Source: Paludisphaera soli
GTDB lineage: Bacteria; Planctomycetota; Planctomycetia; Isosphaerales; Isosphaeraceae
NCBI RefSeq assembly: GCF_011064595.1
Contig: NZ_JAALJI010000022.1
Coordinates: 1-64,000, forward strand
Direction: 5' to 3'
DNA length: 64,000 nucleotides
This document shows positions 15,175-26,389 of this stretch, one piece after another (position 1 is the first letter of the stretch; each line of letters opens with the position of its first letter). Under the pieces are notes generated by a model that saw nothing but the letters and a program-made list of their open reading frames with translations, did no database searches and was not told where the DNA came from. Both the position numbers and the translations under genes were made by a program.

Positions 15175-16602
15175 TCAGTCTGTCGGGCTCGCCGATCCCG
15201 ATTCCCGGCCGTCCGGGACCAGAGGGCGGCTGGGGTCGATGAGGAGCCAGCAGGCGGCGGCCAGGACGAAGGCGGCGACGTAGGTCGCGAAGGCCGACTC
15301 GTAGCCGGCGATCGCGGCGATCCGCTTGTCGGCCTCGGCGAGCGCGGCGGGGGCGACGTCCAGCGCGGCGGCCTTGGCGGCGATCGAGCCTTCTACCAGG
15401 GTCCCCGTCAGCCAGCCGGCCAGGGCGTTGCCCAGCGTCCCCACCGTGTTCATGCAGGCGGCCGTGGTCGCGGCGTGCCCCCTCCCCAGGTCCTGGCACG
15501 AAGCCCAGCAGGCGCCCAGCGTCAGGTCGATGGTGAACGCGGCGAGCGACGTCAGGATGCAGTAGGCGTGGACGTTCGTCGCCCCCAACGCCCCCCACCA
15601 GCACGCCGCGCCGAGCGAGAGGGCCGAGACCCCCAGGGCCCGCCGGGCGCGCCGGCGGTCGCCCAGCAGCCGGGCCAGGCCGTTGACCGCCGGCCCCCCG
15701 AGCAGGCAGCCGGCGGCCCCCACCCAGAGGGGGGCCCCCTTGTAGATCGCGCCGATCCGGTCGTCGGCCCCGATCCCGAACCGCTCCTCGACGTAGGTCG
15801 GCAGGTAGCTGAGGTTGAACGCCCAGGCGTAGTTGACCGACAGGTACATGACGCAGAGGGCCCAGAGCGTCCGGTTCGTCGCCAGGGCCTTCCAGGGGAC
15901 GGCCGCGTGGGGGGACGGCCGGGCCTCGTCCTCGTGCTTGTCGCGGCGAGCGGCCTCGGCCGGCCGGTCGGGGAAGCCGAGCCGGAAGGCGACCGCCCAG
16001 GCGACGCCGATCGCCCCGAAGAGCAGGAAGGCCCCGCGCCAGGTGATCCAGGGGGCCGACGTCGCGGTCCCGCCCACGAGGACCGCCCAGAGGAAGGGGG
16101 TCAGCCCCCCCGCCAGCCTGCCGGACATGAACACCAGCCCCTGCGCCGTCTCCCAGCTCCGGGCCGGCAGCCGGTCGTGCAGGGCCCGGGTGATGTTCGG
16201 GTACGCGCCGGCCTCGCCGGCGCCGAACAGGAAGCGCAGGACGATCAAGGCGCCGACGCCCCCCATCACCGCGCCGCCGACCCGCAGGCCGATGAGCCCG
16301 GTCAGGGCCGTGCAGGCCGACCACCAGATCACGATCCGGGTCAGCATCAGCTTGGCGCCGTAGCGGTCTCCCATCGCGCCGGCGGGGATTTCGAAGGCCG
16401 CGTAGGCGATCGCGAAGGCCGTGATCGCCCACTTGAGCTGCGAGGCGTCCGCCAGGCCCAGCTCGCCGGCGATGGGCCGGAGCGCCATGCTGAAGCAGGC
16501 CCGGTCCAGGTACGTGATCATCGACAGGGTGCAGACGAACGCCAGCACCCGGCCGTGGTCGCGCAGCAGCCGAGTCGGGGGGGCGGTCGCCGCCGCCGTC
16601 AC
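15175..16602 (-). CDS. MFS transporter (anion:cation symporter type)
   Basis: Twelve-helix major facilitator of 475 residues, most like the ACS branch that carries sugar acids and other organic anions. TYLDRACFSMALRPIAGELG near 30-50 and the loop 2-3 motif GAMGDRYGAKLML near 75 are typical; LFGAGEAGAYPNITR around 145 is the family motif in helix 4. It is the last gene of the five-gene operon and overlaps the dehydratase gene by four bases, so it is the likely importer of that enzyme's substrate or its precursor. Confidence 0.88.
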   Translation of the reverse strand: MTAAATAPPTRLLRDHGRVLAFVCTLSMITYLDRACFSMALRPIAGELGLADASQLKWAITAFAIAYAAFEIPAGAMGDRYGAKLMLTRIVIWWSACTALTGLIGLRVGGAVMGGVGALIVLRFLFGAGEAGAYPNITRALHDRLPARSWETAQGLVFMSGRLAGGLTPFLWAVLVGGTATSAPWITWRGAFLLFGAIGVAWAVAFRLGFPDRPAEAARRDKHEDEARPSPHAAVPWKALATNRTLWALCVMYLSVNYAWAFNLSYLPTYVEERFGIGADDRIGAIYKGAPLWVGAAGCLLGGPAVNGLARLLGDRRRARRALGVSALSLGAACWWGALGATNVHAYCILTSLAAFTIDLTLGACWASCQDLGRGHAATTAACMNTVGTLGNALAGWLTGTLVEGSIAAKAAALDVAPAALAEADKRIAAIAGYESAFATYVAAFVLAAACWLLIDPSRPLVPDGRESGSASPTD

Positions 16603-17720
16603 TTGGACTCGCTCACGAGGGTGGAGCGGACGAAGTCCTCGTCGATGGTCACGCCCAGGCCGGGGCGGTCGGGGACGGTGATCCAGCCGTCGACGGCCTG
16701 GATCTTCTCGTGGGTCAGCTCGTGCCGCAGCGGCGAGTCCTCCACGCAGTCCTCGAACAGGAAGGCGTCGCGGCAGGTGGAGAGCCAGTGCAGGCTCGCC
16801 GCCACGGTCACCGGGCTGGTGTAGCAGTGGTTGCAGAGCCGCGCCCCGATCTCCTCGACCCGCTGGCGGATGTAGGCGCTGTCGGTGAAGCCGTTGCGCG
16901 AGAGGTCGACCTGGTAGACGTCCAGGCAGCGGCCGTCAATGTAGGGGCGGAACGACTGCCGGCCGCACTCCTCCTCGCCCGACGCGATCGGCACCGGGGA
17001 GCGGTCGCGGAGCCAGCGGTAGCCCTCGTAGTCGTCCGGGTGGAGCGGCTCCTCCAGCCAGCCGATCCGCTGCTGCTCGAACGCCTTGGCCCGGTCGAGC
17101 GCCGTGCGGGCGTCCCAGACGCAGCCGGCGTCGATGAGCAGCTCGGCGTCGTCCCCGAGCCCCTTGCGGGCGCCGACGACCAGGTCGCGGTCGACGGCCT
17201 CGCTCTGGCCCATCGGCTCCCAGCCGAACTTCACGGCCGTGTAGCCGGCGTCGATCCAGCGCTTGCCGATGTCGGCCGTCTGCCTGCCGTCCTTGCCGAA
17301 GAGGATCGAGGCGTAGGCGCGGAAGCGGTCGTGCCGCTTGCCGCCCAGCAGCCGGTGGATCGGCTCGCCGTACTTCTTGCCCTTGATGTCCCACAGGGCC
17401 ATGTCGATGGCGGACATCGCCGTGATGGTCGTGGAGCTGCGGCCGCAGTACATGGTGCGGCGGTACATCTTCTGCCAGATCCGGTCGGTCTCCAGCGGGT
17501 TCTCGCCGATCAGGAGCTGGCGAAGGCCGGTGGCGACGTTGTGGCTGAACGGGGCGTCGATGACCGCCTTGACCATCTCGGGCGAGGAGTCGGCCTCGCC
17601 GACCCCCTCGATCCCCTCGTCGGTCCGGACCCGCACGAGCACGGAATCCTGGCTGCTGGCCGTCTTGGCCTCCACGTTCTTGATGCGGAGGATCTGGCAG
17701 ACGATCTCGGTGATCTTCAT
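16599..17720 (-). CDS. enolase-superfamily (mandelate racemase-type) acid-sugar dehydratase
   Basis: A 373-residue enolase-superfamily member. Metal ligands and catalytic residues fit the mandelate-racemase subgroup: Lys164 in TAVKFGWEPMG, Asp197 in LLIDAGCVWDA, Glu223/Glu224 in WLEEPL, Glu249 in IASGEEE, and His298 in LCNHCYTSP as likely general base. Members dehydrate acid sugars such as galactonate, rhamnonate or galactarate, or racemise. The MFS gene overlapping its end supports uptake and breakdown of an organic acid. The exact substrate cannot be named. Confidence 0.87.
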   Translation of the reverse strand: MKITEIVCQILRIKNVEAKTASSQDSVLVRVRTDEGIEGVGEADSSPEMVKAVIDAPFSHNVATGLRQLLIGENPLETDRIWQKMYRRTMYCGRSSTTITAMSAIDMALWDIKGKKYGEPIHRLLGGKRHDRFRAYASILFGKDGRQTADIGKRWIDAGYTAVKFGWEPMGQSEAVDRDLVVGARKGLGDDAELLIDAGCVWDARTALDRAKAFEQQRIGWLEEPLHPDDYEGYRWLRDRSPVPIASGEEECGRQSFRPYIDGRCLDVYQVDLSRNGFTDSAYIRQRVEEIGARLCNHCYTSPVTVAASLHWLSTCRDAFLFEDCVEDSPLRHELTHEKIQAVDGWITVPDRPGLGVTIDEDFVRSTLVSESK

Positions 17721-17799: not shown

Positions 17800-18828
17800 T
17801 CAGGAGGCGACGCGGGCGACCACGACGATGTGCTGGCCGCGCGGCACCGGCGCGGCCCAGGCCTGCGCGAGCACCACGCCGTCCACCCCGGCGACGGCCG
17901 GCCAGGGCTCCATGTCGATGTGGTCGAAGTCGTGCAGCAGGCCCACCGCCTGGCCGCGACGGACGACGGTCCCGCACTCCACCAGCGGCTCGTAATGGCC
18001 GTCGAACGGGGCGACCGTGAAGCACTCGCGGTCGACCATCTCCACCACCTTCTGGGTGCCGTCGCGGTGGTGGTCGATCGGCTCGATCTCGCCCCGGAGC
18101 TGGCCCTGGCGGATCGCCGCGGCGAGGACGCCGTGCTTGCCGTAGCGCACGCCGTCGACGTTCACGGCCCGCCCCCAGCCCAGCTCGGTGCCGACGGTGA
18201 TCTTGCCGAGCCGCTCGGCCTCGCTCGGCAGCAGGCCGGGCGTCTGGTTCTGGTAGACCATCAGGCAGGGCGTGCCGAACCAGCGGGCCGTCTGCTCGAT
18301 CTCACGGGCGAGCTCCGGGTCGTCGACGCGGTGGTAGTTGGCGCAGAGCGCGAAGCGGGCGACGTCGCCGCCGGCGTGGAGGTCGATCACGGTGTGCACG
18401 CGGGGCCAGATGAACGCCCGCACGAACGCCGCGATCCGGTGGGTGATCCCCGCCAGGGCGGGCGTCGTCCCCGCCCCCTCGACGAACGCCCGGTTCAGGT
18501 TCACGCCGTCGTCGGGCCGGCTCTCGCGCGTCCCCGACCGGAAGGCCGAGGGGTTGAGCACCGGGATGAAAAGGATCCGCCCGCGCACGTCCTCGGTGCG
18601 GATCTGACGCATCAGGTGCTTCAGGGCGACGGGCCCCTCGTACTCGTTGCCGTGGTTGGAGCCGAAGGCGACCAGGCCGCGGCCCTCGGCGGCCTCCGGG
18701 CCGACCCAGACGGTCAGCGGGATCAGGTGGTCGCCCCAGATGCTGTCGTGCTCCAGCGCGACCCAGTAGTCGCGGCGGCCGGGCGAGTCCAGGTCCAGCT
18801 TGTCGGGGCGGGCGACGACGCGCGTCAT
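17800..18828 (-). CDS. AstE/AspA-family zinc deacylase (DoeB-like)
   Basis: Zinc carboxypeptidase-like amidohydrolase of the succinylglutamate desuccinylase/aspartoacylase family, 342 residues. Zinc ligands are visible in AFGSNHGNEYEGPVAL (His and Glu near 57-62) and VIDLHAGGD (His near 146); VLNPSAFRSGTRES and DDGVNLNRAF are family motifs. DoeB-type N-acetyl-diaminobutyrate deacetylases share the NHGxEYEGP pattern, but ligand specificity is open. No signal peptide, so cytoplasmic. Between the DUF1501 and dehydratase genes, it may release an acid from an N- or O-acylated substrate. Confidence 0.83.
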   Translation of the reverse strand: MTRVVARPDKLDLDSPGRRDYWVALEHDSIWGDHLIPLTVWVGPEAAEGRGLVAFGSNHGNEYEGPVALKHLMRQIRTEDVRGRILFIPVLNPSAFRSGTRESRPDDGVNLNRAFVEGAGTTPALAGITHRIAAFVRAFIWPRVHTVIDLHAGGDVARFALCANYHRVDDPELAREIEQTARWFGTPCLMVYQNQTPGLLPSEAERLGKITVGTELGWGRAVNVDGVRYGKHGVLAAAIRQGQLRGEIEPIDHHRDGTQKVVEMVDRECFTVAPFDGHYEPLVECGTVVRRGQAVGLLHDFDHIDMEPWPAVAGVDGVVLAQAWAAPVPRGQHIVVVARVAS

Positions 18829-18856: not shown

Positions 18857-20287
18857 TCAGGCGAGGATCGGCCGCACGACCTGGCCGTGGACGTCGGTCA
18901 GGCGGAAGTCGCGGCCGGCGTAGCGGTAGGTCAGGCGCTCGTGGTCGAAGCCGAGCAGGTGGAGCATCGTCGCGTGGAGGTCGTGGACGCTCACCGGGTC
19001 CTCGACCGCCTTGAAGCCGAACTCGTCGGTCGCGCCGTGGACCGTCCCCCCCTTCACGCCGCCGCCGGCCATCCAGACGGAGAAGCCGTAATGGTTGTGG
19101 TCGCGGCCGAGCGAGGCCTTCCCGCTGCCGTCCAGCTCGACGGTCGGCGTGCGGCCGAACTCGCCGCCCCACACCACCAGCGTGTCTTCGAGCATGCCCA
19201 GCCGCTTGAGGTCGGTCAACAGGGCGGCGATCGGGCCGTCCACCTGCGCGGCCAGCTTGCGGTGGTTGGCGGCCAGGTTGGCGTGGTCGTCCCAGGGCTG
19301 GCCGGCGCCGTGCCAGAGCTGCACGTAGCGCACGCCGCGCTCCAGCAGGCGGCGGGCGATCAGCGTCTGGCGGCCGTGCACGGTGTCGCCGTACAGGTCG
19401 CGGATCGGCTGCGGCTCGCGCGCCACGTCGAAGGCGTCGGCCGCCTCGACCTGCATCCGGAAGGCGGTCTCGAACGACTGGATCCGGGCGTCGAGCCGGG
19501 CGTCGGGCCGCTCGCGGCGGTGCGCCGAGGCCAGCCGGCGCAGCAGGTCGAGCTGCTTGCGCTGCGCCGCGGCCGAGGCGTGGGGGCTGCGGATGTTCTC
19601 GATCAGCTTGTCGACGTCGGCGAACTGGGGGTCGACGAACGTCCCCTGGTAGACCCCCGGCAGGAATCCGGAGGCCCAGTTCTCGGCGTCCTTCACCGGG
19701 TATCCGCTCGGGCACATGGCGACGAACCCGGGGAGGTTCTGGTTCTCCGTCCCCAGGCCGTAGAGCACCCACGCGCCGACGCTCGGCCGCGGCAGGACCG
19801 AGTCGCCGCAGTTCATCAGCATCAGGGACGGCTCATGGTTCGGCACCTGCGCGAACATCGAGCGGATCACGGCGATGTCGTCGGCGTGCTCGGCCGTGCG
19901 GGCGAACAGCTCGGAGATCTCCAGGCCGCTCTCCCCGTATCGTTTGAACTGGAAGGGGGAGGCGAACGCCGCGCCGGTCTTGCGCTCGGTGGTCAGGTCG
20001 AGCGGGATCGGCTTGCCGTCGTAGCGGGCGAGGGCCGGCTTGGGGTCGAACGTGTCGACGTGGCTGGGCCCGCCGTTGAGGAAGAAGTGGACGACGCGCT
20101 TGGCCTTCGCTGGGAAGTGCGGCGTCCTCGGGGCCAGGTCGCCCGCGTCGGCCCCGGAGGCCGCCGGGCCGGCTAGGGAGTCCCGCGCGCCGAGCAGGTC
20201 CGCGAGGCCCAGCGCGCCCAGGCCCATCGCCGAGCGCTGGAGCATCTCGCGGCGGCTCGTCGGCGTGCGGAAGAGGGGGTCAGGCAT
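18857..20287 (-). CDS. DUF1501 protein with Tat signal
   Basis: DUF1501 proteins are alkaline-phosphatase-fold, exported proteins abundant in Planctomycetota and usually paired with PSD1 cytochromes. The 476-residue product begins with a twin-arginine leader (TSRREMLQRSAMGLGALG). The fold is recognisable from FFLNGGPSHVDTFDPKP, WDDHANL and LVVWGGEFGRTP. ATG 20287 has AGGAG upstream; an alternative ATG at 20314 overlaps the previous stop (TGATG) and would add nine residues. Function is unknown; export with a PSD1 protein suggests a periplasmic enzyme pair. Confidence 0.9.
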   Translation of the reverse strand: MPDPLFRTPTSRREMLQRSAMGLGALGLADLLGARDSLAGPAASGADAGDLAPRTPHFPAKAKRVVHFFLNGGPSHVDTFDPKPALARYDGKPIPLDLTTERKTGAAFASPFQFKRYGESGLEISELFARTAEHADDIAVIRSMFAQVPNHEPSLMLMNCGDSVLPRPSVGAWVLYGLGTENQNLPGFVAMCPSGYPVKDAENWASGFLPGVYQGTFVDPQFADVDKLIENIRSPHASAAAQRKQLDLLRRLASAHRRERPDARLDARIQSFETAFRMQVEAADAFDVAREPQPIRDLYGDTVHGRQTLIARRLLERGVRYVQLWHGAGQPWDDHANLAANHRKLAAQVDGPIAALLTDLKRLGMLEDTLVVWGGEFGRTPTVELDGSGKASLGRDHNHYGFSVWMAGGGVKGGTVHGATDEFGFKAVEDPVSVHDLHATMLHLLGFDHERLTYRYAGRDFRLTDVHGQVVRPILA

Positions 20288-20313
20288 GTCGGGGCTCCTG
20301 CCGGGGGTCACCA

Positions 20314-23300
20314 TCAGTCGACGAACAGGAATTCATTGGACATCAGGAGCACCTGGGCGAGCTGCTCCCTCGGCGTGAGGCCGGCGGCCGACGGGCCGTG
20401 GAAGTCGCGGGCCGCGTCCCAGAGGCCGCCCGAAGGCGCGGGCCCGGCGTCGATCCGGGAGGGGCGGATCTTCGGGGCCCAGAGGTGCTGGTCGCTGTTC
20501 AGGGCCTCGCGGACGTCGACCACGAAGTCGATCGCGTCGCCGGGCTCGACCTCGATCGCGTCGGCGTGGAAGTCCACCTTGGCGGCGTGGACCACGTCCG
20601 TCTTGAGGACGCCGCGACGGTTCGAGACCAGCCACCCGCGCACGCCGTCGCCGGCCGCCGGGACGTGCTCCAGGGTCGACTCCACGGCGACGACGCCCCG
20701 GATCGGCGACGTCCAGCGGCGGACGATCGAGCGGGCCAGGTCGTTCCCGGGGTGCCCCCCCTCGGCCGTGATCCGCGCCCAGCCCAGCGTCGGGTCGGGC
20801 CAGGTCGGTCCGCCGCCCCAGCCCTTCCCGTCGTAGAAAGGCATCGGGCGGAGGTCCTTCGAGGGCCCCGACGCAGGGTCGACCGTGGTGCAGCCGTAGG
20901 ACCAGGCCAGGCTCTCCGCGGGGGGCGAAGGCGGGGGCGTCGCGGCGGCGTCGGCCAGGAACTCCCGCGCGGCGTCGGCCTCGTCGGCCGTCGGGTCGCG
21001 CTGGAAGGCGGCCTGGAAGGCGTCGCGGATCGCGGCGGCGTCGTCCTCCGGGAGCCGCGCGGCCAGGGCCCGGGCGCGGGCGGCGGGGAACGGGTGGTTC
21101 ATGGCGAAGAGGGCCTGCTGCGGGACGGTCGTCTCGCTCCGCGAGGGGATGTGCAGGTCCGGGTTGGCGAAGTCGAAGACCCGGAAGACGCCGGGGAGGA
21201 ACTGGCGGTCGACCACGCCATAGAGCGTGCGACGGCGGTTCTCAGCCCCGCCGAAGAGGGGCGTCCCCCGGCCGCCGAGCCGGGCGTCCAGCTCGCCGGT
21301 CGCGGCGAGGGCCGAATCGCGGGCCTCCTCGAACGTCAGGCGGTGGGGGTTGGCCCGCCAGAGGAGGCGGTTCTCCGGGTCCTTGAGCGCCGCCGCCTCG
21401 TCGTCCGGGCCGCCGCCGTTCGAGCGCTGGCGGTACGTCGAGGAGAGCAGGATCAGGCGGTGGATCGCCTTGGTGCTCCAGCCGCCGTCGATCAGCCGTC
21501 GGGCGAGCCAGTCGAGCAGCTCGGGATGGCTGGGGGGCTCGGACCGGATGCCGAAGTCGCTGGGGGTGCGCACCAGCCCCGCGCCGAAGTGGTAGGCCCA
21601 GATCCGGTTCACCCAGACGCGGGCCGTGAGCGGGTTCTCCGGGTCGATGATGGCGCGGGCCAGCTCCAGCCGGCCGCTCCCCCGCTCGAACGCCGGGGCG
21701 TCGGGGCCGGCGACGACCTGGAGGAACCGCCGCGGCACGAGGTCGCCGGGGTTGGCCGCATTCCCGCGCTTGAAGACGCGGGGCTCGCGGATCTCGGCCC
21801 GGTCCGCCAGGGCCGAGGCGTAGGCGGGCGCGGCGGGTGACTGCATCAGCCAGCGGTCGACCTCCCCCTGGAGGTTCCAGAGCTTGACGTCCTCGTTGTT
21901 GTCCAGGAACGCCTCGATGGTCACGATCGGCTCGTCGGGGATCCAGCAGGGGGACCGATCGGGCTCGTAGAGGACCCGTCGCAGGGCCTCGGCGTCGGGG
22001 TCGGCGAGCGCTGTCGCGGCGGGGTCGGCCTTGAGCGCCTCCTCCCACTCCTTGTCGACCTCGGCGAAGAGGCGGGCGTAGCGTCCCACGACCTCGGCCA
22101 TCGCGGCCGGAGGCGTGGCGAAGGCGGACGCGACGCGCGGGTTCACCGGCGTCGCGCCCGGCCCGTCGGGCTCGGCCAGCGCGGCGGCGGCCCCCGCCGC
22201 GAAGTCGGCCTCGGGGAGCGCGGCCAGGCGGCGCCAGGGGCGGAAGATCGGGTCGTCGGCCTGGGCCGCGGCGGCCAGATACGCCTGCCAGCGGCGGACC
22301 GACGCGGGGACGATGTCGCTCGGGTAGAGGATCACGTCGAAGCCGTCCGCCGGGACCTTGGACAGGTCGAGCTGCGCCGCCAGGTAGTCGGCGATCCGCG
22401 ACCGGATCCGCCGCGAGGCCTCGGCCCGCGCCGACGCCACGCCCGCCTCCAGGGCGTCCACGCGCTTCTTCAGCTCGGCCTCGAACGCCGATCGCTCCGC
22501 CTCGCTCCCCGACGGCTCGCCGAGCGGCGTGAGGCGCTCGGTGCAGTTCATGAAGACTCCGTAGAGCGCGTAGTAGTCGGCGGTGGGGATCGGGTCGTAC
22601 TTGTGGTCGTGGCAGCGCGCGCAGCCGACGGTCAGGCCCATCGTACCCCGGGTCACCACGTCGATCCGGTCGTCGATGATGTCGTGAGAGACGCCCAGGA
22701 ACCGTCGCCCGAGCGTCACGAACCCGAGCGCCGCCAGCGCGGAGGGGTTTTCCGGCTCGGCCTGGTCGGCGGCGATCTGGTCCAGGAGGAAGCGGTCGTA
22801 CGGCAGGTCGTCGTTGAACGCCTTCACGACCCAGTCGCGATAGGCCGGCGCGTGGACGAAGAAGCGTTCCTCGCGGCCGTAGACGTAGCCCTTGGTGTCG
22901 GCGTAGCGCGCCACGTCGAGCCAGTGGCGGGCCCACTGCTCGCCGTACCGCTTCGAGGCCAGGAGGCGATCGACGAGCTTCTCGTAGGCCGTCGGGTCGG
23001 AGTCGGCGACGAACGCGGCGACCTCCTCGGGCGTCGGCGGCAGGCCGGTCAGGTCGTACGAGAGGCGGCGGATCAGGGTGCGGCGGTCGGCCTCGGGCGA
23101 GGGGGACAGGCCCGCCTCGGCGTGCTTCGCGGCGACGAAGGCGTCGACCGGAGTGCTGACCCACGAGGGGTCGCGGGGGGCGGGGGGCTCCGGGCGGGCC
23201 ATCGGCCGAAACGCCCAGTGCCGCGCCCAGACGTCCTTGCGGGTCTCGACGGCCGGTGCGCCGTCGTCGGGCCAGGCGGCGCCGGCGGCGACCCAGCGCT

Positions 23301-23646
23301 CCAGCGCGGCGGACTGCTCGGGCGCGAGCGGGGCGTCCGGGGGCATCTCCAGCCCCCCTTCCCGCCGGACCGCTTCGATCAGGAGGCTTTCCCCGGGATT
23401 TCCCGGGACGACGGCCGGCCCGGTGTCGCCCCCTTCCAGGAGGGTCGCCCGCGAGTCCACCCGCAGGCCCCCCTTCTGCTTGTCGGGGCCGTGGCAGGAC
23501 TGGCACTTCTCCACCAGCAGGGGGCGGACCTCCTTCTCGAAGGCCTCGACCTCGGCGGCCGACTGGGCCCGCGCCGGCCCGCAGGCCAGGCCGATCGCCA
23601 GGGCGAAGGCCGCCCCGATCGGCCGGATGCGGCGATGTTGGGACAT
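20314..23646 (-). CDS. PSCyt1/PSCyt2/PSD1 planctomycete cytochrome protein
   Basis: A 1110-residue exported protein with the Planctomycetota domain series. A signal peptide (about 1-27, ending GPARAQS) is followed by a PSCyt1 heme domain with CQSCHGPDKQKGGLRVDSR near 53-71, a PSCyt2/DUF1549 region (SYDLTGLPPTPEEV, WARHWLDVARYADTKGY, CARCHDHKYDPI near 342), and a PSD1/DUF1553 C-terminal domain (RVWVNRIWAYHFG, PPSHPELLDWLA, SSTYRQRS). It probably transfers electrons in the periplasm. It is the first gene of a five-gene operon. GGGAGGA precedes the ATG. Confidence 0.93.
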   Translation of the reverse strand: MSQHRRIRPIGAAFALAIGLACGPARAQSAAEVEAFEKEVRPLLVEKCQSCHGPDKQKGGLRVDSRATLLEGGDTGPAVVPGNPGESLLIEAVRREGGLEMPPDAPLAPEQSAALERWVAAGAAWPDDGAPAVETRKDVWARHWAFRPMARPEPPAPRDPSWVSTPVDAFVAAKHAEAGLSPSPEADRRTLIRRLSYDLTGLPPTPEEVAAFVADSDPTAYEKLVDRLLASKRYGEQWARHWLDVARYADTKGYVYGREERFFVHAPAYRDWVVKAFNDDLPYDRFLLDQIAADQAEPENPSALAALGFVTLGRRFLGVSHDIIDDRIDVVTRGTMGLTVGCARCHDHKYDPIPTADYYALYGVFMNCTERLTPLGEPSGSEAERSAFEAELKKRVDALEAGVASARAEASRRIRSRIADYLAAQLDLSKVPADGFDVILYPSDIVPASVRRWQAYLAAAAQADDPIFRPWRRLAALPEADFAAGAAAALAEPDGPGATPVNPRVASAFATPPAAMAEVVGRYARLFAEVDKEWEEALKADPAATALADPDAEALRRVLYEPDRSPCWIPDEPIVTIEAFLDNNEDVKLWNLQGEVDRWLMQSPAAPAYASALADRAEIREPRVFKRGNAANPGDLVPRRFLQVVAGPDAPAFERGSGRLELARAIIDPENPLTARVWVNRIWAYHFGAGLVRTPSDFGIRSEPPSHPELLDWLARRLIDGGWSTKAIHRLILLSSTYRQRSNGGGPDDEAAALKDPENRLLWRANPHRLTFEEARDSALAATGELDARLGGRGTPLFGGAENRRRTLYGVVDRQFLPGVFRVFDFANPDLHIPSRSETTVPQQALFAMNHPFPAARARALAARLPEDDAAAIRDAFQAAFQRDPTADEADAAREFLADAAATPPPSPPAESLAWSYGCTTVDPASGPSKDLRPMPFYDGKGWGGGPTWPDPTLGWARITAEGGHPGNDLARSIVRRWTSPIRGVVAVESTLEHVPAAGDGVRGWLVSNRRGVLKTDVVHAAKVDFHADAIEVEPGDAIDFVVDVREALNSDQHLWAPKIRPSRIDAGPAPSGGLWDAARDFHGPSAAGLTPREQLAQVLLMSNEFLFVD

Positions 23647-23705
23647 GGGGTTCCTCCCGTCCTTGATGCCTCCGGAGGCCGGAGCCGGCCAGACACGTCG
23701 CCGAG

Positions 23706-23737
23706 ATTGTAGACAATTTCAGGAATCCTGTCTACAA
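23706..23737 (-). promoter_or_regulatory. operator-covered promoter of the PSD1-to-MFS operon
   Basis: On the minus strand TAGACA (23734-23729) and TACAAT (23711-23706) are separated by exactly 17 bases, a good sigma-70-type pair. Each box lies inside a copy of the TGTAGAC core: site 1 TTGTAGACAA at 23707-23716 (perfect palindromic ends) and site 2 on the opposite strand at 23728-23737. A regulator bound to both would block RNA polymerase. The predicted start is near 23699. Confidence 0.65.
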
Positions 23738-23762
23738 AATCCGGCCCGAACGAAGGATTATA

Positions 23763-23794
23763 TTGTAGACAATGTGTCGCGGATCGTCTACATT
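23763..23794 (+). promoter_or_regulatory. operator-covered promoter of the GntR gene
   Basis: The mirror of the 23706-23737 site. On the plus strand TAGACA (23766-23771) and TACATT (23789-23794) are 17 bases apart. Site 3 TTGTAGACAA is at 23763-23772 and site 4, with core GTCTACA, at 23786-23792. The core-to-core distance (22 bases) is the same as in the other pair. This suggests that the GntR protein represses its own gene and the operon together. Confidence 0.65.
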
Positions 23795-23883
23795 CCAGCC
23801 CTCGCGGCCGGGGGCGTCGCGGGGAGACGACCCGTCGCCGGCCCCCTTGCACGGCCGGCGTATCCCATCGCGAGCTTCGAACC

Positions 23884-24501
23884 ATGACGGCCCAAGCCGA
23901 GGACCATCCGGAATCCAGGGTCAGCCGGACGCTGCGGGAGGAGATCCTCACGGGCCGGCTCGCGGCCGGATCGCGGCTCACCGAGGCCGGCCTGTCCAGC
24001 CGGTTCGGGGTCGGCCGGGGCCTGGTGCGCGAGGCCTTCCAGAAGCTCTCCTCGCAGGGCCTGGTCATCAGCCGGCCGAACCGGGGGGCCGTCGTGGCGC
24101 CGGAGGCCCCCCGCGAGATCCGCAACCTGATCATCCCGATCCGCCGCACGGTCGAGGTCTACGCCCTCCGCCTCGTGTTCGACGAGCTGGACGACGCCGA
24201 CTCCGCCGCCTGGGACGCGATCCTCGGCCGGATGCGCGACGCCTGCGCCCGCCGCGACTTCCACGCGATCGCCGAGGCCGACCTCGCCTTCCACCGCCGC
24301 CTTCTGGAGCGCGCCGGCCAGCCCGACCTGATCGTGATCTGGGAGACCCTGGTCGGCCGCATCCGGTCCCACTTCCGCGAGACCCAGAAGCGCAGCGCCG
24401 ACGCGATGGAGATCCACGAGGAGCACCGGGCCCTCGCCGAATCGTTCCGGGGCCGGGACCTGGCCGCGGCCGTCCGCCTGCTCAAGGAGAAGATCACCTG
24501 A
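23884..24501 (+). CDS. GntR-family regulator (FCD/FadR-type)
   Basis: Transcriptional regulator of 205 residues. The N-terminal winged helix reads TLREEILTGRLAAGSRL, LSSRFGVGRGLVREAFQKL and GLVISRPNRGAVV. The C-terminal FCD ligand domain has RRTVEVYALRL and the metal-binding pattern ADLAFHRRLLERAG and EEHRALAESFRGRD. FCD members usually sense organic acids such as sugar acids. It is divergent from the PSD1/DUF1501/deacylase/dehydratase/MFS operon, and the intervening DNA holds four operator-like sites, so it most likely controls that operon and itself. Confidence 0.92.
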   Translation: MTAQAEDHPESRVSRTLREEILTGRLAAGSRLTEAGLSSRFGVGRGLVREAFQKLSSQGLVISRPNRGAVVAPEAPREIRNLIIPIRRTVEVYALRLVFDELDDADSAAWDAILGRMRDACARRDFHAIAEADLAFHRRLLERAGQPDLIVIWETLVGRIRSHFRETQKRSADAMEIHEEHRALAESFRGRDLAAAVRLLKEKIT

Positions 24502-24714: not shown

Positions 24715-25725
24715 ATGCCCGGAAGAGCGACCGAACCCCGCCGCGGCTTCACCCTGATCGAGCTGCTGGTGGTCATCGCGATCATCGCCGTGCTCATCGC
24801 CCTGCTGCTGCCGGCCGTGCAGTCGGCGCGCGAGGCGGCCCGTCGCGCCCAGTGCGTCAACAACATGAAGCAGATCGGCCTGGCGATGCACAACTATCAC
24901 GACACCGTCGGCAGCTTCCCGCCGGGCTCGCTGGTGAACGCCGACACCTGGGGCGGCTCGTGGTGGGCCTGGTCGGCCCTGATCCTGCCGCAGCTCGAGC
25001 AGGTGAACCTCTCCAACGCCATCAACTTCTCGCTCGGCAACGGCGCCAACGCCAGCCCGGAGCACACGACCGTCTTCCGCACGATCATCGCCGCCTACCT
25101 CTGCCCGTCGGACGACTCGAACCGGCTGTTCGACGACCGCAAGTGGACGAACATCAACGACCTGGGGACGTCGTACCTGGCCGCCCCGCTGAACTACGTC
25201 GCCAGCTGGGGCGACCAGAAGACGGGCAACCCGCTGTTCGACGTCTACTCGACGCAGGCCGCCGGCACCTACTGGGGGTGCAAGAACACCTTCTCCGGCA
25301 TGTTCGGCGACTGCAGCTCGGGCGCCGTCACGAACCTGGCCGGCTGCACCGACGGCAGCAGCAACACCATGCTCGCCGGCGAGAACTCGCCGAACTACAA
25401 CGGCCAGCTCATGTGGACCAACGGCCACGGGGCCTACGGCGGGACCATCATCCCGCTGAACTGGAAGACCAACCTGAAGGACGGCCAGCTCGACCCGACC
25501 GACGGCACGATCTGCAGCACGGCCTACATCACGTCGGTCGTCGCGACCCACTGCTTCCGCAACCAGGTCTACAACTTCGCCTTCAAGAGCAAGCACCCCG
25601 GCGGGGCCAACTTCACCTTCGCCGACGGCTCCGTCCGGTTCATCAAGCAGTCGATCAACCCGAGGACCTACGCGGCCGCCAGCACGCGCAACCGCGGCGA
25701 GATCATCTCGGCCGACGCCTTCTGA
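24715..25725 (+). CDS. DUF1559 pseudopilin-like protein
   Basis: Planctomycete DUF1559 protein, 336 residues. The N-terminus carries a type IV prepilin/pseudopilin signal ([20 protein letters not shown]) with Gly before Phe and Glu at +5, then the conserved [20 protein letters not shown] and the C-terminal H-x-DG-type motif ([20 protein letters not shown]). AAGGAG lies seven bases before the ATG. The family is expanded in this phylum, and its role (cell-surface structures or secretion) is unproven. It is followed by a lipoprotein gene in the same direction. Confidence 0.94.
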
Positions 25726-25819: not shown

Positions 25820-26389
25820 ATGCGCATCCAGACGCTCGCGACGGCCGCGATTCTGATCGCGACCGCCGCCGTCCTGCTGGCGACGACCGGCTGCGGCCCC
25901 GGCAACGGCCTGAGCCTGGCCCGGGTCAGCGGCAAGGTCACCTACAAAGGGGAACCGGTGACGTTCGGCACGATCCTGTTCGAGCCCGAGAAGCCCGACG
26001 TGCCGCCGGCCGCCGGGTCGATCGGCAAGGACGGCGGCTTCATCCTCTCCACCGAGGACCCGGGAGACGGCGCCGTCGTCGGCTCGCACCGGGTCGCGAT
26101 CATCGGCCTGGAGGAGCTCGCCGAGGCCGACCAGGCGGCGATGCCCGACCCGGAGAAGTCGCCCCAGGAGTACATGGTCGCCAAGACCAGGGCCGGGACC
26201 ACGCCGGCCCGCGCCAAGAAGGCGGACGACTCGACCTACACCGACAAGTCCGGCAAGGTCTTCCGGATCACGATCCCGACCAAGCTGAACCAGGCCGCGA
26301 CCTCGGGCCTCAAGGTCGAGGTCTCCTCGGGGTCCAACTACGTCGAGATCGCCATCGACGAGGACGGCACGGCCCGGGTCAAGTCCTGA
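25820..26389 (+). CDS. lipoprotein with carboxypeptidase-regulatory-like fold
   Basis: A 189-residue lipoprotein with a signal peptide ending in a lipobox (ATTGC, about 22-26). The mature part reads RVSGKVTYKGEPVTFGTILF, then GGFILSTEDPGDGAVVGSHRV, the pattern of planctomycete lipoproteins with a transthyretin/CarboxypepD-reg-like beta-sandwich. It follows a DUF1559 gene by 94 bases and is likely co-transcribed with it. Its last 11 bases overlap the end of the convergent histidine kinase gene. Function is unknown. Confidence 0.85.
   Translation: MRIQTLATAAILIATAAVLLATTGCGPGNGLSLARVSGKVTYKGEPVTFGTILFEPEKPDVPPAAGSIGKDGGFILSTEDPGDGAVVGSHRVAIIGLEELAEADQAAMPDPEKSPQEYMVAKTRAGTTPARAKKADDSTYTDKSGKVFRITIPTKLNQAATSGLKVEVSSGSNYVEIAIDEDGTARVKS

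Follow-up and report, generated by a model that had tools for sequence, protein, structure and literature searches.

Operators held in common repress two divergent, overlapping promoters in Tn10 tetR/tetA and in the bioO and argE/argCBH regions of Escherichia coli, where the regulator families and operator sequences are unrelated to those described here. Among the FadR-type members of the GntR family, DgoR of E. coli, the repressor of D-galactonate use, acts as a dimer on two close inverted repeats that overlap the promoter (PMC12288454, PMC7674646). In the FadR-subfamily divergons described by Suvorova et al. (2015, PMC4494728), the transcription factor gene diverges from its target operon and a double site at constant distance acts on both sides; the consensus consists of TKGT and ACMA boxes 2-3 nt apart. 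These sources thus already document both a FadR-type repressor acting on two repeats at its promoter (DgoR) and the divergon with a double site, and Planctomycetes are not among the entries shown of Table 2 of PMC4494728. Warman, Grainger and colleagues (PMC12825309) described bidirectional promoters, in which pseudo-symmetrical DNA serves two directions and one polymerase excludes the other; those of E. coli share a -10 element, and their starts are commonly 18, 10, or 23 bp apart. Judged by title, nothing in the literature searched dealt with a GntR operator or a promoter map from planctomycetes, or with GntR double operators; for the exact strings TTGTAGACAA and TTGTCTACAA, the papers were unrelated by title among the matches listed.

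Four palindromic sites between gntR and a divergent operon

The window, that is, the whole stretch of 64,000 nt of Paludisphaera soli DNA analyzed here, comes from a genome rich in G+C (one large contig has 70%) and contains a gntR gene that diverges from a predicted operon.

15175..16602, minus strand: MFS transporter, nearest model a D-galactonate transporter, below cut-off (family matches)
16599..17720, minus strand: enolase-superfamily (MR/MLE) protein, sugar-acid dehydratase-like (NCBIfam matches all below cut-off)
17800..18828, minus strand: AstE/AspA-type deacylase (domain and family matches)
18857..20314, minus strand: DUF1501 protein (domains, synteny)
20314..23646, minus strand: PSCyt1-PSCyt2-PSD1 (DUF1549/DUF1553) protein, first gene of the leftward operon (domains, synteny)
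23884..24501, plus strand: gntR, GntR winged helix and FCD, 205 aa (PF00392, PF07729; homologs)
24715..25725, plus strand: DUF1559 prepilin-like protein, downstream of gntR (domain, synteny)
25820..26389, plus strand: small gene after DUF1559, lipoprotein-like by inference (synteny; no family match)

The regulator is a GntR protein, as the original prediction had it, and domain matches place it in the FCD/FadR type, with an N-terminal GntR winged helix (PF00392, E 7.9e-16) and a C-terminal FCD domain (PF07729, E 8.6e-19), both above cut-off. Between the start of the leftward PSCyt/PSD1 gene (23646) and that of the rightward GntR-FCD gene (23884), two pairs of 10-bp palindromes lie at 23707-23793; all four have the form TTGTNNACAA, B and D imperfectly.

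23707..23716, plus strand: predicted operator site A, left pair, TTGTAGACAA (sequence and three-genome alignment)
23728..23737, minus strand: predicted operator site B, left pair, CTGTCTACAA on the plus strand, 7/8, centre 21 bp from that of A
23763..23772, plus strand: predicted operator site C, right pair, TTGTAGACAA
23784..23793, minus strand: predicted operator site D, right pair, TCGTCTACAT on the plus strand, weaker, 6/8

The four TGTAGAC/GTCTACA cores on which the original prediction was built are present at 23708(+), 23730(-), 23764(+), and 23786(-), and its inverted spacing of 22 bases also stands: the 7-mers of each pair start 22 bp apart, and the 10-bp palindromes are 21 bp apart from centre to centre. 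The core 7-mer occurred 8 times in the window against 0.82 expected. In the 7.97-Mb genome, exact TGTAGAC-N15-GTCTACA was found twice, both times at 23707-23793 (reversed control 0), and exact TTGTNNACAA six times, two of them in the same interval (reversed control 4). The sites, with TKGT/ACMA boxes and a 2-nt centre, fit the published FadR-subfamily consensus as given in PMC4494728, and the best reading is that the divergent FCD/FadR-type GntR protein uses them as its operators.

The locus resembles the DgoR system in its FadR-type regulator and in its two close inverted repeats overlapping a predicted promoter; IR1 of DgoR contains TTGTAGTACAA, which is close to TTGTAGACAA. The operon here also has MLE and MFS genes, whose nearest models are sugar-acid (including galactonate) dehydratases and the galactonate transporter, far below curated cut-offs. 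However, in DgoR sites GT and AC are separated by 3 nt (PMC4494728), compared with 2 here, and DgoR is encoded by the first gene of its own operon (PMC7674646), whereas gntR is divergent; neither a 3-nt centre nor a regulator first in the operon, as would be expected of a DgoR ortholog, was found at this locus, and the DgoR model was not among the NCBIfam matches of its proteins. The divergent arrangement, the double site at constant distance, and the boxes are those of the FadR-subfamily divergons, except that the double site is itself repeated here, in one to three pairs.

The paired sites are conserved with the regulator

In a family survey of 45 genomes (protein matches at E <= 1e-30), GntR matches were found in 10: the own genome, with two genes, eight genomes at 71-93% identity, and G031 at 35%; the last had no pair in the upstream scan and is omitted from the ortholog counts. 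Among named relatives, identity was 84% in Aquisphaera insulae, 73% in two Singulisphaera records, and 89% in a Planctomycetales MAG. A 21-bp pair was present upstream of all nine orthologs (at least 71% identical, own gene included) and of the own-genome paralog, the orthologs being kin, so that genome counts are not counts of independent events, and several forks among the closest rows of the tree being open. One pair was found in G006, G007, and G016 and at the paralog; two pairs in the own genome (G000), G004, G005, and G001, where one of them is degenerate; and three in G037 and G038. In one intergenic region each of Singulisphaera sp. GP187 and S. acidiphila (L059, L060), three operator pairs lie 101-106 bp apart.

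The ten 700-bp upstream regions held 43 sites scoring at least 6/8, compared with 9.0 (max 18) in block shuffles. Among such sites up to 120 bp apart, a spacing of 21 bp accounted for 16 site pairs and the runner-up, 56 bp, for 5, whereas shuffling single bases (not dinucleotides) in 50-bp blocks gave a mean of 0.027 21-bp pairs (max 1); in the 18 tabulated pairs the distance was constant at 21 bp. When G000, G004, and G005 were aligned, 37/40 site positions were invariant, compared with 100/200 other positions (p=1.4e-7), the latter divided into in-pair spacers (7/22), the stretch between pairs (9/25), and the rest (84/153).

The association extended beyond the family. A phylum sample of 392 genomes, searched at E <= 1e-40, gave GntR matches in 14 genomes including the own one. 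With the own genome left out, exact TTGTNNACAA lay within 500 bp upstream in 19/23 more distant homologs (mean 0.217, max 2 after single-base shuffling in 30-bp blocks), counts that are not independent, many of these genomes belonging to one genus; those lacking it in these 500 bp were L128, L131, L133, and L141. The site centres at the distant homologs were TA, AT, CG, TG, TT, GT, and TC. Since these homologs have other central bases, the predicted operator is better written as TTGTNNACAA, so that the core sites of the original prediction hold while its exact operator sequence is refined. A 62% identical GntR gene (L122, in G417) has three sites upstream: two with a spacing of 21 bp and a further one, TTGTTGACAC, which contains a perfect -35 in TTGACA-N17-TAGACT towards gntR.

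The paralog (L067, G000 C57:155777-156391) is 88% identical and does not differ from the gntR product in the letters of its recognition helix and wing (FGVGRGLVREA, SRPNRGAVV), which makes cross-regulation and cross-binding between the two proteins likely. It adjoins a different DUF1501/PSCyt cluster and has a single pair upstream, TCGTCGACGA-N11-TCGTCTACGA.

Gene order of the predicted target operon

The five-gene leftward operon of the original prediction is borne out by a gene order that is largely conserved at the orthologous loci. Homologs of the leftward PSCyt, DUF1501, and AspA genes were present at 8/8 such loci outside the own genome, MFS at 7/8, and MLE at 6/8; a close MLE is absent from the locus in G001, and the G016 stretch ends before MLE and MFS. 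PSCyt was divergent in all eight, in G016 about 2.4 kb from gntR and not adjoining the pair. A close DUF1559 homolog occupied the same place in 4/8.

In three loci from other families (L154, L155, and L157), gntR immediately precedes PSCyt-DUF1501-MLE-AspA and points the same way, an arrangement that is an independent link between the regulator and its putative target. Two further loci keep only part of the arrangement. In L151 (G417), gntR, the sites, DUF1559, and the small gene were present, and PSCyt and DUF1501 were not found in 15 kb. In G002 (L150, C1), AspA-MLE-MFS is kept without a close GntR ortholog; PSCyt, DUF1501, and GntR were not found in 20 kb, and in this single case the only site in the 20 kb scoring at least 7/8 lies about 1.5 kb upstream of AspA. 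The regulator probably represses itself and the PSCyt-DUF1501-AspA-MLE-MFS operon.

Promoter-like hexamers coincide with the site pairs

Scanning of positions 23600-23900 gave three sigma-70-like matches, compared with a mean of 0.0 in 50 shuffles, all with a hexamer spacing inside the 16-18 bp range of sigma-70 promoters.

23706..23734, minus strand: predicted leftward promoter of the structural operon, TAGACA-N17-TACAAT, 10/12 (scan; hexamers identical in G004 and G005)
23762..23790, minus strand: possible second leftward promoter, in the right pair, TAGACG-N17-TACAAT, 9/12
23766..23794, plus strand: predicted rightward gntR promoter, TAGACA-N17-TACATT, 9/12 (scan; hexamers identical in G004 and G005)

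The two promoters named in the original prediction do point outwards, as it held, but the right pair also reads leftward and is bidirectional on paper. This second leftward match has a TAGACC form in G004 and falls below threshold in G005 (TAGGCG). Across the ten upstream regions, 27/28 promoter-like matches coincided with operator pairs, and the other one overlapped a site (G038). No promoter match was found at the threshold used in the 700 bp upstream of the paralog.

By our reckoning, an operator consensus pair at 21 bp supplies 7/12 promoter matches by itself, and the promoter overlay is therefore partly automatic. The informative bases beyond the operator consensus are G3 of the -35 box and T1 and T6 of the -10 box, of which T6 is not a pure promoter signal because it is part of an extended palindrome, ATTGT..ACAAT. 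All three were present leftward in 16/18 pairs and gntR-ward in 8/18. In the left pair, the three close two-pair genomes have lost the gntR-ward T6, and G001 both T1 and T6; in the right pair, the three close genomes keep both sets, with the leftward reading of G005 below threshold as noted above. Both directions are intact at the single-pair loci of G006 and G007. None of the six pairs of G037 and G038 retains the gntR-ward T1, the -10 reading GACAAT, and in G016 and at the paralog only the gntR-ward set is kept. An overlay of operator and promoter is plausible.

The promoters of the own genome were surveyed in 459 upstream regions from 1.19 Mb with a home-made gene call. In the gene direction, TTGAC..TANNNT peaked at 17 bp (n=8; 4 at 16 bp, 5 at 18 bp, and 0-3 at other spacings), with -10 examples such as TACACT and TACAGT. 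The opposite strand peaked too (7 at 17 bp), and the count does not separate direction, many of the regions being common to divergent genes and hence counted both ways. TAGAC as a -35 at 16-18 bp from TANNNT was found 0 times in the gene direction and once on the other strand of these regions. The primary sigma factor aligns closely with RpoD chains of the PDB and is identical to them across most of two stretches that we take to be regions 2.4 and 4.2. The -10 boxes at the locus are accordingly ordinary in form and the TAGACA -35 is unusual, which would be expected if its A is kept for the operator or for the opposite -10.

Genome-wide searches and a look-alike element

The original prediction had proposed a genome search for the operator to find the regulon. 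Exact TTGTAGACAA did occur only here, but the search with one mismatch returned 75 rows, exact ones included, against 48 in the reversed control. A loose pattern (a TYGTNGACRA pair with 3 mismatches) was useless, giving 484-687 forward matches per genome compared with 29-43 in the reversed control. A tight pattern, the TTGTNNACAA pair with 2 mismatches, matched three places in the own genome, namely both pairs here and an element upstream of the farnesyl diphosphate synthase gene; elsewhere it matched 1-5 places in 28/44 other genomes (reversed control 0-3 per genome). Apart from the two at this locus, the own genome has four exact TTGTNNACAA sites; a crude ORF filter put one inside open frames and three in the gaps, and together they outlined no clear regulon. 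One of those in the gaps, TTGTTGACAA at L037:1501-1510 (G000 C13:99888), has two open frames on either side and precedes a small gene and a DUF1559-like prepilin gene, the gene types found behind gntR.

The farnesyl diphosphate synthase gene, identified by NF045485 above cut-off and by the Pfam polyprenyl synthetase family, is preceded by an element resembling the operator pair.

L166:6002-6032 (G000 C132:90301-90331) and L170-L199: look-alike element, 21-bp layout

The look-alike, TGTNGACAA-N11-NTGTCVACAAT and variants, lies 131-210 bp upstream of the matched start in 28/30 regions examined, of 43 genomes with the gene, and is present also in genomes without this GntR. Its scores were 11-15 of 16, compared with maxima of 10-12 in single-base shuffles; at 11/16 the four regions concerned do no better than the best of 100 shuffles, with place and form in agreement. 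Only the right half is kept in G032 and G044. The element may represent a variant form of promoter or else a further operator of the FCD kind, and its existence makes us less confident that the 21-bp layout belongs to this GntR in particular.

Proposed mechanism and alternative explanations

What the DNA itself shows is the sites and the promoter-like hexamers, the 21 bp between paired centres, the order of the genes, and the retention of the sites together with the regulator. The reading we favour for 23707-23793, with a rough probability of 0.77, is an autoregulated divergon in which GntR operators would cover both promoters. The FCD/FadR-type protein encoded at 23884-24501 would bind TTGTNNACAA palindromes as dimers, and four dimer sites are expected because each 10-mer is a whole palindrome. 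Two dimers 21 bp apart, a distance of two helical turns, would lie on one face of the helix, and each pair would cover both boxes, -35 and -10, of a sigma-70 promoter whose spacer is 17 bp; bound repressor would thereby exclude RNA polymerase. The left pair would act mainly on the leftward PSCyt-DUF1501-AspA-MLE-MFS operon and the right pair mainly on gntR, and the ligand releasing the repressor would probably be a small carboxylate or sugar-acid-like compound. In this scheme we infer binding, repression rather than activation, the start sites, and the class of ligand. The scarcity of TAGAC as a -35 in the own genome, the 7/12 promoter matches that the operator consensus implies, the look-alike element, the lost gntR-ward T1 of G037 and G038, the distance of PSCyt from gntR in G016, and the missing PSCyt and DUF1501 of G417 speak against it, whereas the lack of nearby sites in G002, which has no ortholog of the regulator, speaks for it.

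A competing explanation takes the pairs as cooperative GntR operators only, with promoters elsewhere and the promoter look a by-product of the TTGTNNACAA consensus. It draws on the 7/12 matches that the consensus supplies, on 21 bp being a two-turn distance as well, and on the GACAAT of G037 and G038 and the paralog pair without a match at threshold. However, the centre dinucleotide, variable in distant homologs, is invariant at all four sites in the three closest genomes (8/8), the centres are mirrored AG/CT, as G3 of the -35 and T1 of the -10 require, and the 700 bp upstream of the ten genes hold no other promoter-like match save the one overlapping a site; we consider this explanation unlikely, at odds of about one to three.

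Less probable still, and about equally so, are two explanations that dissociate the sites from the adjacent regulator. The double element could be mainly a lineage-specific promoter form, common to the farnesyl diphosphate synthase gene, with incidental palindromes, as the recurrence of the look-alike in its 21-bp layout would suggest. Against this, the tight pair pattern occurs only 3 times in the own genome, as no general promoter class would, own-genome promoters peak with TTGAC..TANNNT, the palindromes overlap a promoter-like match in only 6/23 distant GntR regions, and none of the 28 look-alikes has a T at position 1 of its would-be -10. Alternatively, another regulator, such as the 88% paralog or a different FCD protein, could bind in place of the adjacent gntR product; the identical recognition-helix and wing letters of the paralog make cross-binding likely, but from genus to genus the sites go with the adjacent gntR, and they are kept where a genome has a single gene of this kind at E <= 1e-30. 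The autoregulated divergon accommodates these observations best.

A further, tentative reading of the divergon concerns how its promoters are built. TTGTAGACAA and its flanking A might be read three ways, as operator, as -35, and as -10 of the opposite strand; mirrored copies 21 bp apart would then form a two-way repressible promoter in which the central bases set direction, and repeats of the pair would let each direction gain its own copy. The corresponding direction code rests on few loci and is speculative in each of its parts: AG facing CT might be bidirectional (G006, G007), AG facing CG perhaps leftward only (G037, G038), and CG facing CT conceivably gntR-ward only (the paralog). Such a promoter would share pseudo-symmetrical DNA with the bidirectional promoters of PMC12825309, but it differs in that the -35 of one direction overlaps the opposite -10. 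As predicted from the sequence, each pair has two distinct -10 hexamers with 21 bp between them, and by our reckoning the starts of a single pair would be about 46 bp apart.

If the divergon is real, the locus would offer a testable operator and a predicted target operon that encodes functionally uncharacterized PSCyt/DUF1501 proteins. The orthologous loci would in addition provide a natural series of one, two, and three copies for how an operator doubles as promoter boxes.
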